A stretch of 64,000 bases of DNA from Massilia putida (GTDB lineage Bacteria; Pseudomonadota; Gammaproteobacteria; Burkholderiales; Burkholderiaceae_D). This document shows, piece by piece, positions 18,047 to 27,207 of the stretch. A model generated the notes under the pieces. It was given only the letters and a program-made list of their open reading frames with translations. It did not search any database and was not told the DNA's origin. The translations under genes and the position numbers were made by a program. Position 1 is the first letter of the stretch, and every line of letters starts with the position of its first letter. Location: contig NZ_CP019038.1 of NCBI RefSeq assembly GCF_001941825.1, positions 5,580,001 through 5,644,000 on the forward strand, in the 5' to 3' direction.

Positions 18047-18310
18047 ATGCCCATCAGACGCCTGCCCGAGGGCGCCGAGTACGACCCGAACCGGGTACTC
18101 GATGCCATCATCAACAAGCTCAAGCTCAAGAACGACGCCGCGCTGTCGCGCGTGCTGGAAGTCGCGCCGCCCGTGATCAGCAAGATCCGCCACAACACGC
18201 TGCCGATCGGCGCCACGATCCTGCTGCGCATGCATGAGGAGTCGGACATCAGCATCCGCGAGCTGCGCGCGCTGATGGTGCGCAGGGACGGCGCGGCAGG
18301 CGCGGCCTGA
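18047..18310 (+). CDS. Small Cro/C1-like helix-turn-helix protein
   Basis: An 87-residue protein. The middle part (NDAALSRVLEVAPPVISKIRHNTLPIGATILLRM) reads as a helix-turn-helix with the recognition helix around PPVISKIRH. The start at 18047 is chosen over the ATG at 18020 because the latter lies inside a repeat cluster and has no ribosome-binding site. It may regulate itself or neighbours; its position next to the repeat-protein locus is notable but not proof of a link. Confidence 0.7.
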   Translation: MPIRRLPEGAEYDPNRVLDAIINKLKLKNDAALSRVLEVAPPVISKIRHNTLPIGATILLRMHEESDISIRELRALMVRRDGAAGAA

Positions 18311-18350: not shown

Positions 18351-18430
18351 CGACGCGGCCCGTGAGGGGCGGCCGCGTCGGGAGGACTGCGAAACGTGGT
18401 GACGTCCTCGTGCCGTGACGTCCTCGTGCC

Positions 18431-19462
18431 TCAGGCGGCCTTGGCCGCGGTGTGCGGACCAGCGCAGAACGCGGTGTCGGCCTTGATCGCGCTGCGTTCC
18501 TTGGTGTGCGGACCGGCGCAGAAGGCGGTGTCGGCCTTGATCGCGCTGCGTTCCTTGGTGTGCGGACCGGCGCAGAAGGCGGTGTCGGCCTGGATCGCGC
18601 TGCGTTCCTTGGTGTGCGGACCGGCGCAGAAGGCGGTGTCGGCCTTGATCGCGCCGCGTTCCTTGGTGTGCGGACCGGCGCAGAAGGCGGTATCGGCCTT
18701 GATCGCGCTGCGTTCCTTGGTGTGCGGACCGGCGCAGAAGGCAGTCGCCTGTTTGTGCGGCCCGGCGCAGAAGGCGGTATCGGCCTTGATCGCGCTGCGT
18801 TCCTTGGTGTGCGGACCGGCGCAGAAGGCCGTGGCCTCTTTGTGCGGACCCGCGCAGAAGGCGGTGTCGGCCTTGATCGCGCTGCGTTCCTTGGTGTGCG
18901 GACCGGCGCAGAAGGCCGTGGCCTCTTTGTGCGGACCCGCGCAGAAGGCGGTGTCGGCTTTGATCGCACTGCCTTCTTTGATGTGCGGACCTGCGCAGAA
19001 GGCGGTCGCCTGGTCATGCGGGCCGGCACAGAATGCGGTGTCCGCACCGTCCAGTGCCTGCCCTGCCGCGTCGGTCGTGCCCGGATAGGCTTCGCCGAAG
19101 GTGGCTTCGTACAGTTCGCCCATGCGTTTGCCGCTGTCGAGGCGGAACTGCTCGTCCTCTTCGCCGCGCATGCCGACATACGGATAGTGGTGCAGGAAGT
19201 AGCCGAATGCCTGTTCGCAGTCGGCGGCGTATTTCATCGTATCGAGGATGTGGTAATGCCAGAACGTGTCGACGTCGACCAGCGGTGCGGTGTCCTCGTC
19301 CGGGTACAGCTTCATCAGGCACAGGAAGCGGCGGTATTCTTTTTCGACCGCATCGGCCTTTTCCGCACTCCAGCCTTCGCCGGATTCCACGTGCATCAGC
19401 TTCGTTTTGATCGGTTGGAGGTCGAGTTGCATCACGGCTTTGAACAGGTCATTGGCGTTCAT
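18431..19462 (-). CDS. Repeat protein A: GRDP/DUF1399-like N-terminus plus 13 x TAFCAGPH
   Basis: A protein of 343 residues. The start at 19462 has AGGA seven bases upstream. Residues 1-129 form a compact domain with VDTFWHYHILDT (65-75), Cys82 and FLHHYPYVG (89-97). By eye this resembles the DUF1399/glycine-rich-domain-protein fold. From residue 142 to 337 the octapeptide TAFCAGPH occurs 13 times without change. The linkers are of two kinds: a 10-residue TKERSAIKAD type and a 3-residue KEA/KQA/DQA type. No signal peptide is present, so the primary product is cytoplasmic. Codons in the octapeptides vary (TTC TGC or TGT, GGT/GGC/GGG) while residues do not. This recalls multi-core peptide precursors, but no maturation enzyme is adjacent. 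Function unknown. Confidence 0.8.
   Translation of the reverse strand: MNANDLFKAVMQLDLQPIKTKLMHVESGEGWSAEKADAVEKEYRRFLCLMKLYPDEDTAPLVDVDTFWHYHILDTMKYAADCEQAFGYFLHHYPYVGMRGEEDEQFRLDSGKRMGELYEATFGEAYPGTTDAAGQALDGADTAFCAGPHDQATAFCAGPHIKEGSAIKADTAFCAGPHKEATAFCAGPHTKERSAIKADTAFCAGPHKEATAFCAGPHTKERSAIKADTAFCAGPHKQATAFCAGPHTKERSAIKADTAFCAGPHTKERGAIKADTAFCAGPHTKERSAIQADTAFCAGPHTKERSAIKADTAFCAGPHTKERSAIKADTAFCAGPHTAAKAA
18452..19039 (-). repeat. In-frame repeat array A (54-bp and 33-bp units)
   Basis: Thirteen copies of a 24-bp core coding TAFCAGPH are spaced by 30-bp or 9-bp linkers, giving 54-bp and 33-bp units. The five N-terminal-most units alternate short and long linkers; the C-terminal units are nearly identical 54-bp copies, suggesting recent expansion. 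Confidence 0.9.
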
Positions 19463-19757
19463 GGTCATCCTCATTTGTAATGGTTAAGTACAGCAATCCC
19501 TAGTTATGGTGTGAGCGGTGAATCGACTGCCGGAAACAGTATTTCCTTGAAGCATATGATGACATCGGGCAACACACTTTCGGATTTGCAGACGTGTCTT
19601 ACACGTAGTCAATTTAGTTGAGGCAATTCACCATGTTGTTGATGTTTGTCAAAGAAACAAGTTTTATGCTTAGTGGGCTACACGAAATACGATGGGCAGA
19701 GTAGGCCGGCTCAGAAAGAATATCCTGATAACACGACAGGAAGCGCGAGGAACAGCT
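19463..19757 (-). promoter_or_regulatory. Promoter region of repeat-protein gene A with 6-bp dyad
   Basis: This AT-rich region holds no gene. The dyad ACGTGT-CTT-ACACGT lies at 19592-19606, directly after a TTGACT -35-like hexamer on the minus strand and 130-144 bases before the ATG. Gene B has the same arrangement with a compensated dyad (23259-23273). A CTAGGGATTGC motif shared with copy B is nearer the start (about 19496). The regulator is unknown; the divided sites suggest a dimeric factor. Confidence 0.55.
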
Positions 19758-21611
19758 TCAGATGACGGCCGAGCCTGAACTGTGCTCCTGCTGTTGGGAG
19801 AATGCCGGCTCGGGCCCGCCGATGACGGGCGCGGACACCATCACGGTCGTGCCGCCGTCCGGCTCGCTGAACACGGCGCAGGTGCCGCCGAGAATCACGA
19901 TGCGCTCCTCGATACCGACCAGGCCGAACGAACCGTATTTGTTGCGCCCGCCCGGCGGCAGCCCGCAACCGTTGTCGCGCACCGTCAGCGACAGCCAGCC
20001 GCCGTTCAGGCGCAACTCCACCTTCACGCGCGTTGCGTTGGCGTGCCGGACGATGTTCGTGAGCGATTCCTGCAGGATGCGGAAAAAGGCCGTGGCGCAA
20101 TGGTCGGCAAGGGCGATCTCGCCGTGGTCGTCCTGGATCTCGCACTGGATCCCCGTGCGCCGCTGGAACTGGTTGACCTGCCACTCGACGGCCGCCGACA
20201 GCCCGAGGTCGAGCACGGTCGGGCGCAGGTCGTTGATGATCTGGCGCACGCTCTTGATCGTCGTGTCGATCTGCAGCAGGGTGGCGCGCGCGCGCTTGTG
20301 CAGGTGGCTGTGCGTACCCCTGGTGCGTCCGGCCAATAGTTCGGCCTCGATGCGCAGTGCGAGCAGGCTCTGGCCGAGGTCGTCGTGGATTTCGCGCGCG
20401 ATGCGCTTGCGTTCCATTTCCTTGATCTGGTACGCGTGGTCGGCCAGGCGCCTGAGTTTCTGGTGCGACAGTTGCAGCTTGCTCTGGCTCTCGCGCAGTT
20501 CGCTCGTCATCTCCTGGGCGAGCGCGAGCGCGGCGCGGCGCGACGAGGTCAACGTGTGCAGCAGGGCGTACAGCAGGATCGAGCCGAGGAAGCCGAAGGC
20601 CATCATCAGCTTCGGATAGTACGAGTCGAATTCCGTGTACAGCGCGGATTTGCGGACGCTGTAGACGGTCTTCCAGGGGCGGCCGTTGAAGTTCAGCGGC
20701 AACGTCGTCGTGAACACATCGTCGCCGCTGTCGAGCGCCGGCGCGGGATCGCTGGCGCTGCCGCGGCTGTCGAACAGCGCGAGCGCCCGTCCGCTGGTAT
20801 CCCGGCCGTGGGTGTCGGTGCCGGGCCCGATATCGTACAGGGTCATGCGCATCCCGGAAATCGGGATCTCGTCGATGACGCCATGCAGCAGCTTCGGCAT
20901 ATTGAACGCGATCCCGAGCGAACCGACGTAGGCGGCGCGGCGCTCCTCGACCGTGTCGAGCGGCAAGCCGAAGTGGTAGACCGGCGTGCGCATCCCCAGG
21001 TAGATGTTGTTCGGCGAGGACAGTGGCAGAATCGGCGTGCCGGCCGCATAGAGCGTGCCGTTGTCGCGCGCATCCATCAATTGCTTGCTGAAGTAGCGGT
21101 TCATCGCGAGGTCGATGCCGTACAAGGCCGGATTTTTCGGGTCCGGTTCGAAATAGGCGATCAGGAGATAGTCGGGGCGGATGCCCGGCGGTGAAATGTC
21201 CATCTGTACGCCTTTGCCGAAGTGGCCCTGCATTTCTTCGCGCAAGTCGTCCATGAAGGCCAACCGGTCGGCTTCTCTCACATACGCGGCGAAATTCATG
21301 CTGTCGACCGCCGGATAATTGCGTGGCAGTTCGAGCCCGCGCACGAATTCGTGGAACCGGCGGTGCGTCATGATGTCCGTGCTTTGCAGCATGCTGCCCG
21401 CGGCACGGAGCAGGTCGGTATACGATTTGAGACGGACGCTGATGACGCTTTGCGCGTGTTTCGCGTGGTTGACGAACCGCGCCTCGGCGTCGCCTTCGAT
21501 CGAGTGAGCCGTCACGATGTACAGCAGGCTGCTGACCAGGGACGACAGCAGGGCGCCGGCCCAGAACGAGAACCGGGTGACCGAAAACGCGTCTCTCAGT
21601 GTCGTCGCCAT
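19758..21611 (-). CDS. CHASE-domain sensor histidine kinase A (NarL-type)
   Basis: A 617-residue inner-membrane kinase. A membrane helix lies at ~16-36, then a periplasmic CHASE-like sensor at ~40-320 (VDSMNFAAYVREADRLAFMDDLREE), and a second membrane helix at ~335-353. Next come a short coiled coil, a HisKA_3 dimerisation domain with REIHDDLGQ (His409), and a HATPase domain (ESLTNIVRHA, DNGCGLP, GSFGLVGIEER). Such kinases phosphorylate LuxR-type response regulators; none is adjacent. It lies directly upstream of repeat gene A. From residue ~322 on it is almost identical to kinase B while the sensor differs. Confidence 0.85.
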   Translation of the reverse strand: MATTLRDAFSVTRFSFWAGALLSSLVSSLLYIVTAHSIEGDAEARFVNHAKHAQSVISVRLKSYTDLLRAAGSMLQSTDIMTHRRFHEFVRGLELPRNYPAVDSMNFAAYVREADRLAFMDDLREEMQGHFGKGVQMDISPPGIRPDYLLIAYFEPDPKNPALYGIDLAMNRYFSKQLMDARDNGTLYAAGTPILPLSSPNNIYLGMRTPVYHFGLPLDTVEERRAAYVGSLGIAFNMPKLLHGVIDEIPISGMRMTLYDIGPGTDTHGRDTSGRALALFDSRGSASDPAPALDSGDDVFTTTLPLNFNGRPWKTVYSVRKSALYTEFDSYYPKLMMAFGFLGSILLYALLHTLTSSRRAALALAQEMTSELRESQSKLQLSHQKLRRLADHAYQIKEMERKRIAREIHDDLGQSLLALRIEAELLAGRTRGTHSHLHKRARATLLQIDTTIKSVRQIINDLRPTVLDLGLSAAVEWQVNQFQRRTGIQCEIQDDHGEIALADHCATAFFRILQESLTNIVRHANATRVKVELRLNGGWLSLTVRDNGCGLPPGGRNKYGSFGLVGIEERIVILGGTCAVFSEPDGGTTVMVSAPVIGGPEPAFSQQQEHSSGSAVI

Positions 21612-21765
21612 GAAAATACGTTTCCCAAGATGTGTTCCGGCGCTGCCGGGTATGCAATGTTAATTTTTGTAAATTACTTCGCTTGAGTGCCGGGCGTACC
21701 TAGCAGTTCGAAGAGTTGTCGTCCGGCATAGTTCAGAACCGATTCATAACGGGCGCTGCCGGAAC
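21612..21765 (-). promoter_or_regulatory. Upstream region of kinase A with conserved box
   Basis: The 22-base segment at 21699-21720 matches 25379-25400 upstream of kinase B at 20 of 22 positions. The flanking TTACTT...TTG sequence is also similar. It lies 88 bases before the start codon and is a likely promoter or regulator site common to both kinases. Confidence 0.45.
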
Positions 21766-21790
21766 GAAAAATGCCCGCAGGTGAGCGGGC
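21766..21790 (-). terminator. Intrinsic terminator of repeat-protein gene B
   Basis: On the minus strand GCCCGC pairs with GCGGGC around a short loop and is followed by ATTTTT. It lies 55 bases after the stop of the gene at 21846. Confidence 0.75.
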
Positions 21791-21845
21791 AGGTGCTTCG
21801 GCTGGAAGACGGCGCGCGGAGACGCAGTCTTCCCATGGTGAAAGG

Positions 21846-23129
21846 TCAGGCATGTGACACGGCCGCGGCGATATCGGCACGGCACATATTGATGTCCGGT
21901 CCGGCTCGTTTGTTGTCCGGCCCGGCGCGGTAGGGCGTTTCCGCGCGGGGACCGGCGCAGTAAGCGGTCGCCGCGACGGCGCCTTCGCCACGGGCGGCCT
22001 GCGCCTTCACACGCGGCCCCGCGCAGTAAGCCGTTTCCGCGCGGGGACCGGCGCAGTAAGCGGTTGCCGCGACGGTGCCTTCGCCACGGGCGGCTTGCGC
22101 CTTCACGCGCGGCCCGGCGCAGTAGGCCGTTTCCTTGCGCGGCCCCGCGCAATAGGCCGTTTCGGCACGGGGACCGGCACAGTAAGCGGTCGCCGCGACG
22201 GCGCCTTCGCCACGGGCGGCTTGCGCCTTCACGCGCGGCCCGGCGCAGTAGGCCGTTTCCTTGCGCGGCCCCGCGCAATAGGCCGTTTCGGTGCGGGGAC
22301 CGGCGCAGTAAGCGGTCGCCGCGACGGCGCCTTCGCCACGGGCGGCCTGCGCCTTCACGCGCGGCCCGGCGCAGTAGGCCGTTTCCTTGCGCGGCCCCGC
22401 GCAGTAGGCCGTTTCCGCGCGGGGACCGGCACAGTAGGCGGTCGCGGCGACGGCGCCTTCGCCACGGGCGGCTTGCACCTTCACGCGTGGCCCGGCGCAG
22501 TAAGCCGTTTCCCTGCGCGGCCCCGCGCAATAGGCCGTTTCGGCACGGGGACCGGCACAGTAAGCGGTCGCCGCGACGGCGCCTTCGCCACGGGCGGCCT
22601 GCGCCTTCACGCGCGGCCCGGCGCAGTAGGCCGTTTCCTTGCGCGGCCCCGCGCAGTAGGCCGTTTCCGCGCGGGGACCGGCGCAATAGGCGGTGCCCGG
22701 CCCGCCATCTTCTTCGCGGCAAACCTGCTCGACGACGGCTTGCGTGCCCGGATAGGCTTCGCCGAAGGTGGCTTCGTACAGTTCGCCCATGCGTTTGCCG
22801 CTGTCGAGGCGGAACTGCTCGTCCTCTTCGCCGCGCATGCCGACATACGGATAGTGGTGCAGGAAGTAGCCGAATGCCTGTTCGCAGTCGGCGGCGTATT
22901 TCATCGTATCGAGGATGTGGTAATGCCAGAACGTGTCGACGTCGACCAGCGGTGCGGTGTCCTCGTCCGGGTACAGCTTCATCAGGCACAGGAAGCGGCG
23001 GTATTCTTTTTCGACCGCATCGGCCTTTTCCGCACTCCAGCCTTCGCCGGATTCCACGTGCATCAGCTTCGTTTTGATCGGTTGGAGGTCGAGTTGCATC
23101 ACGGCTTTGAACAGGTCATTGGCGTTCAT
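21846..23129 (-). CDS. Repeat protein B: GRDP/DUF1399-like N-terminus plus 18 x TAYCAGPR
   Basis: A 427-residue paralogue of repeat protein A. Residues 1-128 are identical or nearly so to protein A, including the WHYH motif. After a short divergent segment (with one extra Cys in VCREEDGG) the octapeptide TAYCAGPR occurs 18 times between residues 146 and 395. Linkers are AE, KE or RE pairs and a 14-residue VKAQAARGEGAVAA type. They make a higher-order 42-residue unit repeated about five times. The array ends in degenerate copies (TPYRAGPD, then RAGPD) and an unrelated tail NMCRADIAAAVSHA. There is no signal peptide and no modifying enzyme nearby. Every core ends in Arg followed by a short linker, so a trypsin-like protease could release similar peptides; this is inference. 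Confidence 0.8.
   Translation of the reverse strand: MNANDLFKAVMQLDLQPIKTKLMHVESGEGWSAEKADAVEKEYRRFLCLMKLYPDEDTAPLVDVDTFWHYHILDTMKYAADCEQAFGYFLHHYPYVGMRGEEDEQFRLDSGKRMGELYEATFGEAYPGTQAVVEQVCREEDGGPGTAYCAGPRAETAYCAGPRKETAYCAGPRVKAQAARGEGAVAATAYCAGPRAETAYCAGPRRETAYCAGPRVKVQAARGEGAVAATAYCAGPRAETAYCAGPRKETAYCAGPRVKAQAARGEGAVAATAYCAGPRTETAYCAGPRKETAYCAGPRVKAQAARGEGAVAATAYCAGPRAETAYCAGPRKETAYCAGPRVKAQAARGEGTVAATAYCAGPRAETAYCAGPRVKAQAARGEGAVAATAYCAGPRAETPYRAGPDNKRAGPDINMCRADIAAAVSHA
21915..22694 (-). repeat. In-frame repeat array B (126-bp higher-order units)
   Basis: Eighteen exact TAYCAGPR octapeptides plus degenerate ones. Units of 30, 30 and 66 bp combine into a 126-bp higher-order repeat. Codons for Thr, Ala, Tyr, Cys and Gly vary between copies without amino-acid change. 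Confidence 0.9.
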
Positions 23130-23401
23130 GGTCATCCTCATTTGTAATGGTTAAGTACAGCAATCCCTAGTTATGGTGTGAGCGGTGAATCGACTGCCGG
23201 AAACAGTATTTCCTTGGAGCATATGATGACATCGGGCAATACACTGTCTAATTCGCAAACATGTCTTACATGTAGTCAATTTAAATCAGGCAACTCGTTA
23301 AGATATTGATATTTATCAAAGAAGCAACATTAGTTGTTCATGTGGATATACAGTTGTCATAAGGTAGGGTAGGGATTTATCCGGCCGGGATAAATAAAGG
23401 C
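23130..23401 (-). promoter_or_regulatory. Promoter region of repeat-protein gene B with 6-bp dyad
   Basis: No gene is seen. The proximal ~100 bases equal those of copy A. The dyad ACATGT-CTT-ACATGT at 23259-23273 is at the same distance from the start as in A and differs by two compensating bases. TTTATCC...GGATAAA (23376-23394) is a further perfect inverted repeat. Confidence 0.55.
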
Positions 23402-23432
23402 AAAAGAAAACCTCGCCACCCATGCGGCGGCG
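23402..23432 (-). terminator. Likely terminator of kinase B
   Basis: On the minus strand CGCCGCC pairs with GGTGGCG (one G-T wobble, 5-base loop) and is followed by GAGG and TTTTCTTTTG. It separates kinase B from repeat gene B, so the latter probably uses its own promoter. Confidence 0.55.
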
Positions 23433-23457
23433 AATTGCAAGAGGGAAGTATAGGGGA

Positions 23458-25311
23458 CTAGATCAGGGCAGAGCCTGGTCCATGCTCGAATTGTGCGTGG
23501 ACCGGATGTTGCACAGCACCCACTACGGGCGCGGACACCATCACGGTCGTGCCGCCGTCCGGCTCGCTGAACACGGCGCAGGTGCCGCCGAGGATCACGA
23601 TGCGCTCCTCGATGCCGACCAGGCCGAACGAACCGTATTTGTTGCGCCCGCCCGGCGGCAGCCCGCAACCGTTGTCGCGCACCGTCAGCGACAGCCAGCC
23701 GCCGTTCAGGCGCAACTCCACCTTCACGCGCGTTGCGTTGGCGTGCCGGACGATGTTCGTGAGCGATTCCTGCAGGATGCGGAAAAAGGCCGTGGCGCAA
23801 TGGTCGGCAAGGGCGATCTCGCCGTGGTCGTCCTGGATCTCGCACTGGATCCCCGTGCGCCGCTGGAACTGGTTGACCTGCCACTCGACGGCCGCCGACA
23901 GCCCGAGGTCGAGCACGGTCGGGCGCAGGTCGTTGATGATCTGGCGCACGCTCTTGATCGTCGTGTCGATCTGCAGCAGGGTGGCGCGCGCGCGCTTGTG
24001 CAGGTGGCTGTGCGTACCCCTGGTGCGTCCGGCCAATAGTTCGGCCTCGATGCGCAGTGCGAGCAGGCTCTGGCCGAGGTCGTCGTGGATTTCGCGCGCG
24101 ATGCGCTTGCGTTCCATTTCCTTGATCTGGTACGCGTGGTCGGCCAGGCGCCTGAGTTTCTGGTGCGACAGTTGCAGCTTGCTCTGGCTCTCGCGCAGTT
24201 CGCTCGTCATCTCCTGGGCGAGCGCGAGCGCGGCGCGGCGCGACGAGGTCAGCGTGTGCAGCAGGGCGTACAGCAGGATCGAGCCGAGGAAGCCGAAGGC
24301 CATCATCAGCTTCGGATAGTACGAGTCGAATTCCGTGTACAGCGCGGTCTTGGGGGCCGAATAGATCGTCTTCCAGGTCCGGCCGTGGAAATTCAGAGAA
24401 AGGGCCGTCGAAAACGTGGTGTCGCCGCCGGCGAGCGGCGGCGTGGGATCGCTGGCGCTGCCGCGGCTGTCGAACAGTGTGCGCGGCGTGCAGCCCGTGT
24501 CACGACCATGGATATCCAGCCCGGGACCGATGTCGTACAGTGTCATGCGCAGCCCCGTGATCGGCACTTCGTCCATGACGCCGTGGAGAAGTTTCGGAAC
24601 GCTGAAGGCGATGCCGAGGGAACCGGCGTAAGCTGCGCGGCGCTCGGCTACGGTATCGAGCCGGCCGCTGCCGTAATAGATGGGCATGCGCATGCCCAGA
24701 TGGGTGTCGTTCGGCTTCGACAGGGGCTGGATCTGCGTACCGGAGGCGTAAACGGTGCCTTCGTCGCGGGACTTTTCCAATTGCGTGCCGAAATAGCGGT
24801 TTGCCAACAGGTCAACGCCGTAATGCCCGGGACTGGACAGGTCGGGTTCGATGTACGAGATGACGAGGTAGGACGAGCGCCTGCCTGGCGGCGCAATGTC
24901 CAACGGGGCGGGCAGCTCGACAAGGCCCTGCATCTCCTTCCTCAGTTCCTTGATGAAGATGTCCCGCCGCTCATCGGTGACGTGGGTCGCAAAATTGATC
25001 GAGTCGACCGCCGGGAAGTGCTTGGCCAGATCCAGTCCGGTCACATACTGATGAAGCTTGCGATGGGTGATGATATCCATGCTCTGGATCATGCTGCCGG
25101 TCGACTGCAGCAGATCGTTGTATGACTTCACCCGGACGTTGATGACGCTCTGGGCATATTTTGCGTGGTTGGTGAAGCGCTCATACGCATTGTTTTCGAT
25201 CGAACGCGCAGTGACCATGTACAACAGGCTGCCGACCAGCGTCGACAGCATGGCGCCGGTCCAGAACGAAAACCGGGTAACGGAAAACGTGTCTCTCAGC
25301 GTCGTCGGCAT
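23458..25311 (-). CDS. CHASE-domain sensor histidine kinase B (NarL-type)
   Basis: A 617-residue paralogue of kinase A with the same order: membrane helix, CHASE-like sensor, membrane helix, HisKA_3 (REIHDDLGQ) and HATPase (DNGCGLP). The start at 25311 aligns with kinase A (MPTTLRDTFSVTRFSFW). The C-terminal ~275 residues are practically identical to kinase A, and the DNA over ~820 bases is nearly so. The sensor half has many substitutions, which suggests different ligands feeding the same output. No response regulator gene is adjacent. It ends before a likely terminator at 23402. Confidence 0.85.
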   Translation of the reverse strand: MPTTLRDTFSVTRFSFWTGAMLSTLVGSLLYMVTARSIENNAYERFTNHAKYAQSVINVRVKSYNDLLQSTGSMIQSMDIITHRKLHQYVTGLDLAKHFPAVDSINFATHVTDERRDIFIKELRKEMQGLVELPAPLDIAPPGRRSSYLVISYIEPDLSSPGHYGVDLLANRYFGTQLEKSRDEGTVYASGTQIQPLSKPNDTHLGMRMPIYYGSGRLDTVAERRAAYAGSLGIAFSVPKLLHGVMDEVPITGLRMTLYDIGPGLDIHGRDTGCTPRTLFDSRGSASDPTPPLAGGDTTFSTALSLNFHGRTWKTIYSAPKTALYTEFDSYYPKLMMAFGFLGSILLYALLHTLTSSRRAALALAQEMTSELRESQSKLQLSHQKLRRLADHAYQIKEMERKRIAREIHDDLGQSLLALRIEAELLAGRTRGTHSHLHKRARATLLQIDTTIKSVRQIINDLRPTVLDLGLSAAVEWQVNQFQRRTGIQCEIQDDHGEIALADHCATAFFRILQESLTNIVRHANATRVKVELRLNGGWLSLTVRDNGCGLPPGGRNKYGSFGLVGIEERIVILGGTCAVFSEPDGGTTVMVSAPVVGAVQHPVHAQFEHGPGSALI

Positions 25312-25378
25312 GAGGTCCCGCAGGCAGGCAAGGGGTGTGTTTATTGATTGCAACTTACTTGTCTTGCGTGGCTGACGA

Positions 25379-25458: not shown

Positions 25459-27207
25459 TTACTTGCCCCAGCTGTCCTTGAGCGTCGTGACGCGATTGAA
25501 CACGGGCTTGCCCGGGACGGAGTCGACGCGGTCGGCGACGAAATAGCCGTGGCGCTCGAACTGGAAGCGCTGGTCCGGCGCGGCCTGGGCGAGGCCCGGT
25601 TCCAGGTACGCGGTGACGACTTCCAGCGCGTTGGGGTTCAGCGCGGTCATGAAATCCTTGCCGCCGCCGTCCGGCTGCGGATCGAGGAACAGGCGGTCGT
25701 ACAGGCGCACCTCCGCTTCGAGCGCGTGCTGCGCGCTGACCCAGGTGATGTTGCCCTTGACCTTGTAGTTGTCCGCGCCCGGCGTGCCCGATTTCGAATC
25801 CGGGAAATAGTTCACGTGCACGGCCACGACGTTGCCGTTCTCGTCCTTGTCGAACCCGGTGCACTCGGTCACGAAGCCGTATTTCAGGCGCACGCGCGAA
25901 CCCGGCTTGTCGTCGATCGGCGGGTAGAAACGGTGGTAACCCTTGGCCGGCACTTCCATGAAGTCTTCCTGCTCGATCCACAGCTCGCGCGAGAACGGGA
26001 ACGAACGGGTGCCCCATTCCGGATGGTGCGGGTGGACCGGTGCGCTGCACTCGACCGTCTCGCCGTCCGGGAAGTTATCGACGATCAGCTTCAGCGGACG
26101 GAGCACGGCCACGGCGCGCGGCGCCTTCGGGTCGAGGTCGTCGCGCAGGGCGCCTTCCAGCGTGCTCATGTCGATCCAGCCGTCGGCCTTCGAGACGCCG
26201 ATGCGCTCGCAGAACAGCTGGATCGATTCCGGCGTGTAGCCGCGGCGGCGCAGGCCGACGATCGTGGGCATGCGCGGGTCGTCCCAGCCCGTCACGACAC
26301 CGTCAACGACCAGTTGGCGCAGCTTGCGCTTCGACGTGACGACATAGGTCAGGTTCAGGCGCGCGAATTCGTACTGGCGTGGCACCGGACGCTGGAAGAA
26401 GCCGCCGTCGGCCAGCGTCTCCACGAGCCAGTCGTAGAACGGGCGGTGGTCCTGGAATTCCAGGGTGCACAGCGAGTGGGTGATGTTTTCCAGCGCGTCC
26501 GAGACCGGGTGCGTGAAGTCGTACATCGGGTAGATGCACCATTTGTCGCCCGTGCGGTGGTGATGGGCGTGGCGGATGCGGTACAGGGCCGGGTCGCGGT
26601 TCGTCATGATGGGCGAGGACATCGCATCCTCGCTCATCTTGGCACGCAGCACGTGTTCGCCGTCCTTGTACTTGCCGGCCTTCATGTCGCGGAAGATCTG
26701 CAGCGATTCGGCGGCGGGGCGGTCGCGGAAGGGCGAGTTCGTGCCCGGCGTGCCGAAGTTGCCGCGGTTGCGCGACATGTCTTCGGCGCTCTGGCTGTCG
26801 ACGTAAGCCTTGCCGTTCTGGATCAGGTATTCGGCCATCGCGTACAGCTGGTCGAAGTAGTCGCTGGCGTAGTGCAGGTATTCCTGGCCGCCTTGCTCCC
26901 ACGTGAAGCCCAGCCACTTGACGCTGTCCATGATCGTGTCGACGTATTCCTGGTCTTCCTTTTCCGGATTGGTGTCGTCGAAACGGAGGTGGCAGCGGCC
27001 CTGGTAGTCGCGCGCCAGGCCGAAGTTCAGGCAGATCGATTTGGCATGTCCCACGTGCAGGTAGCCGTTCGGCTCCGGCGGGAAGCGCGTGATCACGGAC
27101 GGCATGCCGGCCCGCGTGTGGGTGCCCGCGGCGAGGTCGGATTCGACGATCGCGCGGACAAAATTCGGCGACGGGGTGGCCGCCGCAGCGTTCTTGTCGT
27201 TACTCAT
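25459..27207 (-). CDS. glnS: Glutaminyl-tRNA synthetase
   Basis: A 582-residue class I aminoacyl-tRNA synthetase that charges tRNA-Gln. The HIGH-like motif is in FPPEPNGYLHVGHAK, the LRFDDTNPEKE segment is typical of Gln/GluRS, and the KMSKS-like motif is SKRKL. C-terminal beta-barrel anticodon-binding domains are complete (ending TTLKDSWGK). The start at 27207 (MSNDKN) gives the normal length; the longer frame is not conserved-looking. Monocistronic with its own terminator, divergent from the J-domain gene. Confidence 0.97.
   Translation of the reverse strand: MSNDKNAAAATPSPNFVRAIVESDLAAGTHTRAGMPSVITRFPPEPNGYLHVGHAKSICLNFGLARDYQGRCHLRFDDTNPEKEDQEYVDTIMDSVKWLGFTWEQGGQEYLHYASDYFDQLYAMAEYLIQNGKAYVDSQSAEDMSRNRGNFGTPGTNSPFRDRPAAESLQIFRDMKAGKYKDGEHVLRAKMSEDAMSSPIMTNRDPALYRIRHAHHHRTGDKWCIYPMYDFTHPVSDALENITHSLCTLEFQDHRPFYDWLVETLADGGFFQRPVPRQYEFARLNLTYVVTSKRKLRQLVVDGVVTGWDDPRMPTIVGLRRRGYTPESIQLFCERIGVSKADGWIDMSTLEGALRDDLDPKAPRAVAVLRPLKLIVDNFPDGETVECSAPVHPHHPEWGTRSFPFSRELWIEQEDFMEVPAKGYHRFYPPIDDKPGSRVRLKYGFVTECTGFDKDENGNVVAVHVNYFPDSKSGTPGADNYKVKGNITWVSAQHALEAEVRLYDRLFLDPQPDGGGKDFMTALNPNALEVVTAYLEPGLAQAAPDQRFQFERHGYFVADRVDSVPGKPVFNRVTTLKDSWGK

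Follow-up and report, generated by a model that had tools for sequence, protein, structure and literature searches.

The locus considered here raises the question of what a bacterial protein made of a conserved N-terminal domain (N-domain) and a long array of identical octapeptides is for, and with which partner it works. Two such genes lie in the window, the 64,000-nucleotide stretch of Massilia putida DNA that was analysed, and each is preceded by a gene for a histidine kinase with a CHASE sensor domain. The reading favoured here, held with somewhat better than even confidence and drawn from sequence comparison, is that the repeat protein is the multicopy precursor (or carrier) of a peptide ligand and that the neighbouring CHASE protein is its receptor.

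Gene order and repeat arrays in the window

The genes are transcribed from the minus strand in the order kinase 2, repeat protein 2, kinase 1 and repeat protein 1; a gene for a class I tRNA synthetase (Glu/Gln type, 25459-27207) lies upstream of both kinase and repeat modules (Table 1). The two CHASE histidine kinases (19758-21611 and 23458-25353), which went unmentioned in an earlier sequence-only reading of this DNA, match CHASE (PF03924) with 89.8 and 82.5 bits, above the Pfam curated cut-off of 25. The ORF of kinase 2 is open to 25353, and the start at 25311 was picked by its resemblance to kinase 1. Two smaller elements lie beside repeat gene 1: (i) an 87-aa small ORF (18047-18310, plus strand) that is convergent with this gene, has a sub-threshold match to a phage-CI helix-turn-helix in its longer ORF and belongs to a cluster found in 35 of 41 regions, such that it may be part of the locus, and (ii) a perfect 16-bp tandem duplication (GTGACGTCCTCGTGCC), located directly downstream (18399-18430).

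Table 1. Features of the two kinase and repeat modules, in positions of the window.
Feature	Position	Strand	Remarks
Repeat protein 1	18431..19474	-	347-aa ORF; likely start 19468 (MTMNAND...)
N-domain of repeat protein 1	19076..19468	-	131 aa; all-helical model, pLDDT 93
Array 1	18452..19039	-	13 exact TAFCAGPH; linkers of 3 or 10 residues
Kinase 1, CHASE-HisKA_3-HATPase_c, F-type CHASE	19758..21611	-	upstream neighbour of repeat protein 1
Kinase 1, end of TM1 and variable periplasmic CHASE part	20637..21542	-	used as search query
Kinase 1 / repeat 1 intergenic	19475..19757	-	75 nt adjoining the ORF start identical to those before repeat 2
Repeat protein 2	21846..23141	-	431-aa ORF; likely start 23135
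N-domain of repeat protein 2	22743..23135	-	identical to the N-domain of protein 1
Array 2	21945..22694	-	18 exact TAYCAGPR; linkers of 2 or 14 residues; then a decayed copy
Kinase 2, CHASE-HisKA_3-HATPase_c, YR-type CHASE	23458..25311	-	upstream neighbour of repeat protein 2
Kinase 2 / repeat 2 intergenic	23142..23457	-	

The sequence-only reading had counted 13 exact copies of TAFCAGPH and 18 of TAYCAGPR; both counts are confirmed in place on the minus strand, and both arrays are also detected by TRF. The N-terminal domain of about 130 residues that it saw in each protein is equally real, the two ORFs sharing an identical first 399 nt (133 residues). From its first exact core to its last, neither array contains an altered copy; in repeat protein 2 the final exact core is followed by a decayed stretch (TPYRAGPD...). 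The exact cores vary at six nucleotide columns in array 1 and eight in array 2, all of them (14/14) third codon positions, and about 72-75% of the possible single nucleotide changes in the cores would be protein-altering. Exact cores can, by definition, differ only synonymously, and what carries evidential weight is that no altered copies occur inside the arrays. From this absence and the confinement of differences to third positions, the core peptide is probably kept by selection, with recent copying within the array contributing to the sameness of the cores.

Repeat unit and N-domain across the family

A protein search finds 2247 relatives at E ≤ 1e-3 among 7999 scored candidates. The best 120 of these 2247 are all assigned (precomputed) to PF27765, and the named organisms among the same 120 are Telluria or Massilia. 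Within the same genus, 61 of 62 genomes have an N-domain match; in the sole exception (G014) the contig breaks off inside a CHASE kinase of the locus type, and thus the repeat gene may lie on the missing piece. The relatives and the genus-wide presence rule out the assembly artefact that the sequence-only reading had considered. Family-wide, the N-domain is matched in 198 of 392 genomes and 13 of 44 genera, with some of the matches weak (E about 1e-5). The repeat-gene ORFs of three loci (L122, L048 and L020) are in pieces or have a stop.

The census of the repeat unit spans 101 regions, which contain 141 ORFs with an N-domain over 110 bits. At least three [FYW][CS] units are carried by 136 of these 141 ORFs (median 9, range 3-24), so the possibility that the N-domain never precedes such repeats elsewhere fails. 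Among the 136 array proteins, the consensus residue preceding the aromatic is Ala in 133, the aromatic is Tyr in 62, Phe in 38 and Trp in 36, and the residue that follows is Cys in 82 and Ser in 54. The aromatic is uniform in at least 90% of units in 117 of the 136 proteins, and the Cys or Ser is uniform in 132. The 83 proteins with at least three aromatic-Cys units have 760 tail Cys residues, 743 of which stand directly after an aromatic. Examples of the core include FCAGPH, YCAGPR, YCAGPW, WCGRAP, WCMGTT, YSGRVA, WSGAAV and FCGIVKPP; at one locus (L181) Met replaces the aromatic (AMCGVAV). At the level of sequence, the N-domain is conserved, and the repeat varies between species, is near-uniform within each protein and has A-[FYW]-[C/S] as its shared part.

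These data separate the two functions that had been suggested from the layout of the proteins. The occurrence of Ser in the place of Cys in 54 of the 136 array proteins speaks against metal or redox function as a general role, and a multivalent Cys-based binding protein is not upheld as the general role. The layout of a multi-core peptide precursor fits, with a conserved N-domain, variable cores, a copy number of 3-24 and cores that are intact.

The N-domain is predicted to form a compact fold of six helices, and across 71 sequences its W, WHxH, DC and HH residues are invariant. No solved relative is found by sequence, the best structural matches are weak, and no signal peptide is seen by eye in the N-domain. 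Of the likeness to GRDP/DUF1399 proteins (PF07173) that was noted earlier, a weak relation stands, in the form of a profile match that spans the WHxH region. Membership does not, as the scores of 20.3 and 19.8 bits are below the family cut-off of 22.7, and the GRDP literature, in the part of it that was accessible, is mostly on plants and fungi. Array-less relatives from Neisseria, Moraxella, Eikenella and Bacteroidota have short Cys-containing tails (e.g., SARCPNCGRR or APKCKAPKCRTACKPMKCR). The SARCPNCGRR-type tail occurs with a divergent HTH_3 gene in Neisseria (L246) and in Moraxella and Eikenella MAGs (L198 and L241). Distant GRDP-like proteins of other families (L261-L272) often have Gly/Cys-rich tails (GGCGGCGGD), several of them after hydrophobic stretches.

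The CHASE sensor beside the arrays

The CHASE kinase cluster is present in all 41 regions first examined. In the 101 regions, 103 kinase-repeat pairs pass the filters (kinase >600 bits and >560 aa; repeat gene >120 bits and at least three units), of which 98 share a strand and 5 are divergent. The neighbours in the 41 regions were scanned as 20 conserved clusters, one member each, 5 of which are without a Pfam match. None of these 20 clusters stands out as a dedicated exporter, protease or response regulator; a methyltransferase-like protein forms one cluster, found in 8 of 41 regions, and two MFS clusters are part of a wider syntenic block. The statement of the sequence-only reading that no modifying enzyme adjoins the repeat genes holds for the genes annotated in the window. 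At one locus (L151), a regulator-like ORF accompanied by a kinase of its own is found close by.

In divergent lineages the surrounding genes differ, as judged by their first residues, and the CHASE kinase neighbour is retained. Noviherbaspirillum and relatives have different surroundings and a divergent kinase, which is CHASE-PAS-HisKA_3 in the ones scanned. Variovorax, Aquabacterium, Caldimonas and Undibacterium have, as the neighbour, a long CHASE protein, which in the scanned examples (L151, L218, L224 and L233) joins CHASE with GGDEF-EAL. The neighbour architectures include: (i) CHASE-HisKA_3, (ii) CHASE-PAS-HisKA_3 and (iii) CHASE-(PAS/GAF)-GGDEF-EAL. Thus, the output half swaps between histidine kinase and GGDEF-EAL beside the array, and the CHASE sensor domain is the kept part.

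A CHASE domain is encoded in 60 of 78 named loci, a sample that derives from the best 80 matches of one scan and is biased toward the home family. When an array is taken as a 4-mer present at least three times, the 67 loci flanked by 2.5 kb or more on each side have array and CHASE in 54 cases, neither in 11, array only in one and CHASE only in one, the last of which has a short degenerate array. The remaining 11 loci have both in four cases, array only in three, neither in three and CHASE only in one. Among array-less relatives at loci with this much flanking sequence, 11 of 12 are without a CHASE neighbour. Two arrays run counter to this pairing: an array of another unit (DTATCTDKIYV) in a Thiomargarita MAG (L192, 4956-5624) has no CHASE neighbour, and a short array (L184/L150) adjoins a dCache GGDEF-EAL protein instead of a CHASE sensor. 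The L192 array adjoins a gene with a TonB-receptor plug domain; at L150 (6956-9727), the neighbour of G121's second repeat gene is a dCache-HAMP-PAS-GGDEF-EAL protein, which has another sensor domain. Nearly every array gene adjoins a CHASE sensor, and this adjacency persists through relocation, inversion and output change.

The two modules of the window are alike in some parts and divergent in others. A kinase block of ~700 nt (about 20648-19928) is near 100% identical, and the repeat-gene starts (75 nt and 399 nt) are identical. The CHASE parts diverge (33-49 of 60 nt identical per alignment row), as does the last stretch of the kinase, and no alignment is obtained between the arrays; identity in the kinases breaks off at TM2, about 20648. 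A set of 20 filter-passing tandem modules from ten chosen regions (10 genomes) has four CHASE clusters, which coincide with four repeat types (F; W; Y..PW; Y..PR) in 20/20 modules, and different genomes hold different combinations of these types. CHASE identity is 0.68-0.99 within a repeat type and 0.51-0.67 between types; the mean identities within and between types are 0.88 and 0.88 for the kinase and 0.90 and 0.87 for the N-domain. Partial Mantel coefficients are r = 0.62 (p = 0.0005) for CHASE, -0.08 for the N-domain and -0.15 for the kinase. Among pairs from different genomes with kinase identity of at least 0.85, which are non-independent, the same aromatic is found in 96% of the 74 pairs whose CHASE identity is 0.75 or higher; the share falls to 34% of 59 pairs for 0.65-0.75 and to 28% of 119 pairs for values under 0.65. 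Conservation along the kinase in the 20 modules drops to its minimum at residues 114-133, with a mean of 0.51, and reaches 0.95 at TM2. Solved CHASE chains matched by sequence are 3t4j and 6k62, the latter of which we take to be PcrK. By these alignments, the kinase half and N-domain of tandem modules are homogenised, and CHASE and repeat diverge together; the matched-variation tests cover the histidine-kinase lineages.

Part of this match can come from linked inheritance of the module. That plain linkage is the whole explanation, with CHASE and array diverging at their own pace and matched through whole-module inheritance alone, is improbable. The genes are adjacent and the global partial correlation is small, as plain linkage would have it (r = 0.10 over all 103 pairs, which are non-independent, reached by 3 of 999 permutations). 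However, the homogenised block sits between CHASE and array, and the adjacency persists after relocation. The array also does not fix the type of the next downstream CHASE (four cases of YR to F, two each of YW to W and YW to YR, and one each of W to F and YR to W), which argues against plain linkage, as does the behaviour of distal repeat genes. At 26 loci where a single sensor is accompanied by two repeat genes (L122, with more than one kinase, is left out), the adjacent array tracks CHASE, weakly (r = 0.13, p = 0.027), whereas the distal array does not (r = -0.03, p = 0.68); for the 19 Ser-type two-repeat loci, r is 0.17 (p = 0.017) for the adjacent and -0.16 for the distal array.

The place of the matched variation also weighs on a cytoplasmic multivalent scaffold, in which the repeats would act as short linear motifs for recruiting a partner protein or forming condensates. 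Such a scaffold would suit the exact motif copies with two alternating linker lengths, the low-confidence full-length model of the repeat protein (mean pLDDT 50, array blocks 29-59) and the lack of a visible signal peptide, but the co-varying part of the sensor is periplasmic and its cytoplasmic half is constant, and we give the scaffold little credence.

Proposed precursor and receptor, and their relation to known systems

Multi-core RiPP precursors have a conserved N-terminal part and variable repeated C-terminal cores. The repeat proteins share this layout, and Cys-containing tails are frequent at the ends of distant GRDP-like relatives; thus, the arrays could be precursors of a modified product (e.g., an antibiotic or metallophore), with the CHASE kinase controlling its production only. 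This is judged unlikely. The repeat proteins differ from such precursors in having a folded domain of 131 residues rather than a short leader, and no adjacent modifying enzyme is seen. No modifying-enzyme or RiPP enzyme family is among the 20 conserved neighbour clusters scanned (5 without a Pfam match), and MNIO (PF05114) and YcaO, present in 44 and 58 of the 62 genus genomes, are each missing in some gene-bearing genomes (18 and 4 genomes without them, respectively). A RiPP product alone also leaves the tracking between CHASE and core unexplained, unless the sensor reads the product, in which case this explanation merges with that of a precursor and its receptor.

The array and its co-varying membrane sensor suggest an undescribed peptide signalling system. 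As a peptide precursor, the repeat protein would present, on its conserved helical N-domain, a core that differs between species (A-[FYW]-[C/S]-x-x-x...) in 3-24 copies. These cores would be freed from the repeat protein, enter the periplasm or medium and, as the co-diversification suggests, bind the CHASE domain of the neighbouring sensor. From the domains present, binding is predicted to alter the histidine kinase or, in other lineages, the c-di-GMP enzyme, and the output would be phosphotransfer or c-di-GMP turnover. Candidate roles of the N-domain are those of a carrier, a processing signal or an export signal. The main gap is that no signal peptide is visible and no dedicated exporter is among the scanned neighbours; thus, the exit route from the cell is unexplained. 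Tandem kinase and repeat modules may provide two or three separate peptide channels per cell. A more specific form of the precursor and receptor is put forward tentatively, as a Gram-negative ribosomal peptide-hormone system: the core would be excised from its multicopy carrier, perhaps closed into a ring through the aromatic-Cys/Ser pair to yield a small molecule fitting the CHASE pocket, and recognised by a CHASE receptor that evolves along with it, with tandem modules as private channels akin to mating-type or agr-group specificity.

Polymorphic pairs of peptide pheromone and histidine kinase are exemplified in Gram-positive bacteria by agr and ComX-ComP. Similarly to these pairs, the genes of the proposed precursor and sensor are adjacent, and the candidate ligand and the sensor part vary together with the kinase part constant. 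By contrast, the organism group, the precursor and the receptor domain (CHASE) are different, each precursor has many copies, and no conserved adjacent response regulator or dedicated exporter is found among the scanned neighbours. Yeast alpha-factor is made from a multicopy peptide precursor, which likewise combines several copies of one short peptide and charged linkers in a single protein; the repeat proteins differ in being bacterial, with no signal peptide seen and a folded helical N-domain. A literature search, with sources available in part, finds no published report of a system of repeat precursor and CHASE sensor. To our knowledge, the parts (precursor family, receptor class and taxa) match no known system, and the logic alone resembles peptide pheromone pairs.

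The sensor domain (PF03924) is shared with the CHASE cytokinin receptors of plants (AHK4) and Xanthomonas (PcrK), which have cytokinin ligands, whereas the sensor described here tracks a neighbouring ribosomal peptide array. The ligands described for CHASE sensors, in the accessible part of one source, are cytokinins and not peptides (PMC7072313), which weighs against the proposed peptide ligand. An Azospirillum CHASE-PAS-DGC-EAL protein is associated, in the accessible part of a second source, with biofilm, motility and root colonisation phenotypes (PMC7804937). With a gene in 61 of 62 genus genomes that encodes candidate ligands beside a co-varying receptor, the question of the CHASE ligand becomes directly testable. 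If the proposed precursor and receptor are correct, they would represent a class of peptide signalling in Gram-negative bacteria, soil and plant-associated ones included, with natural specificity groups.
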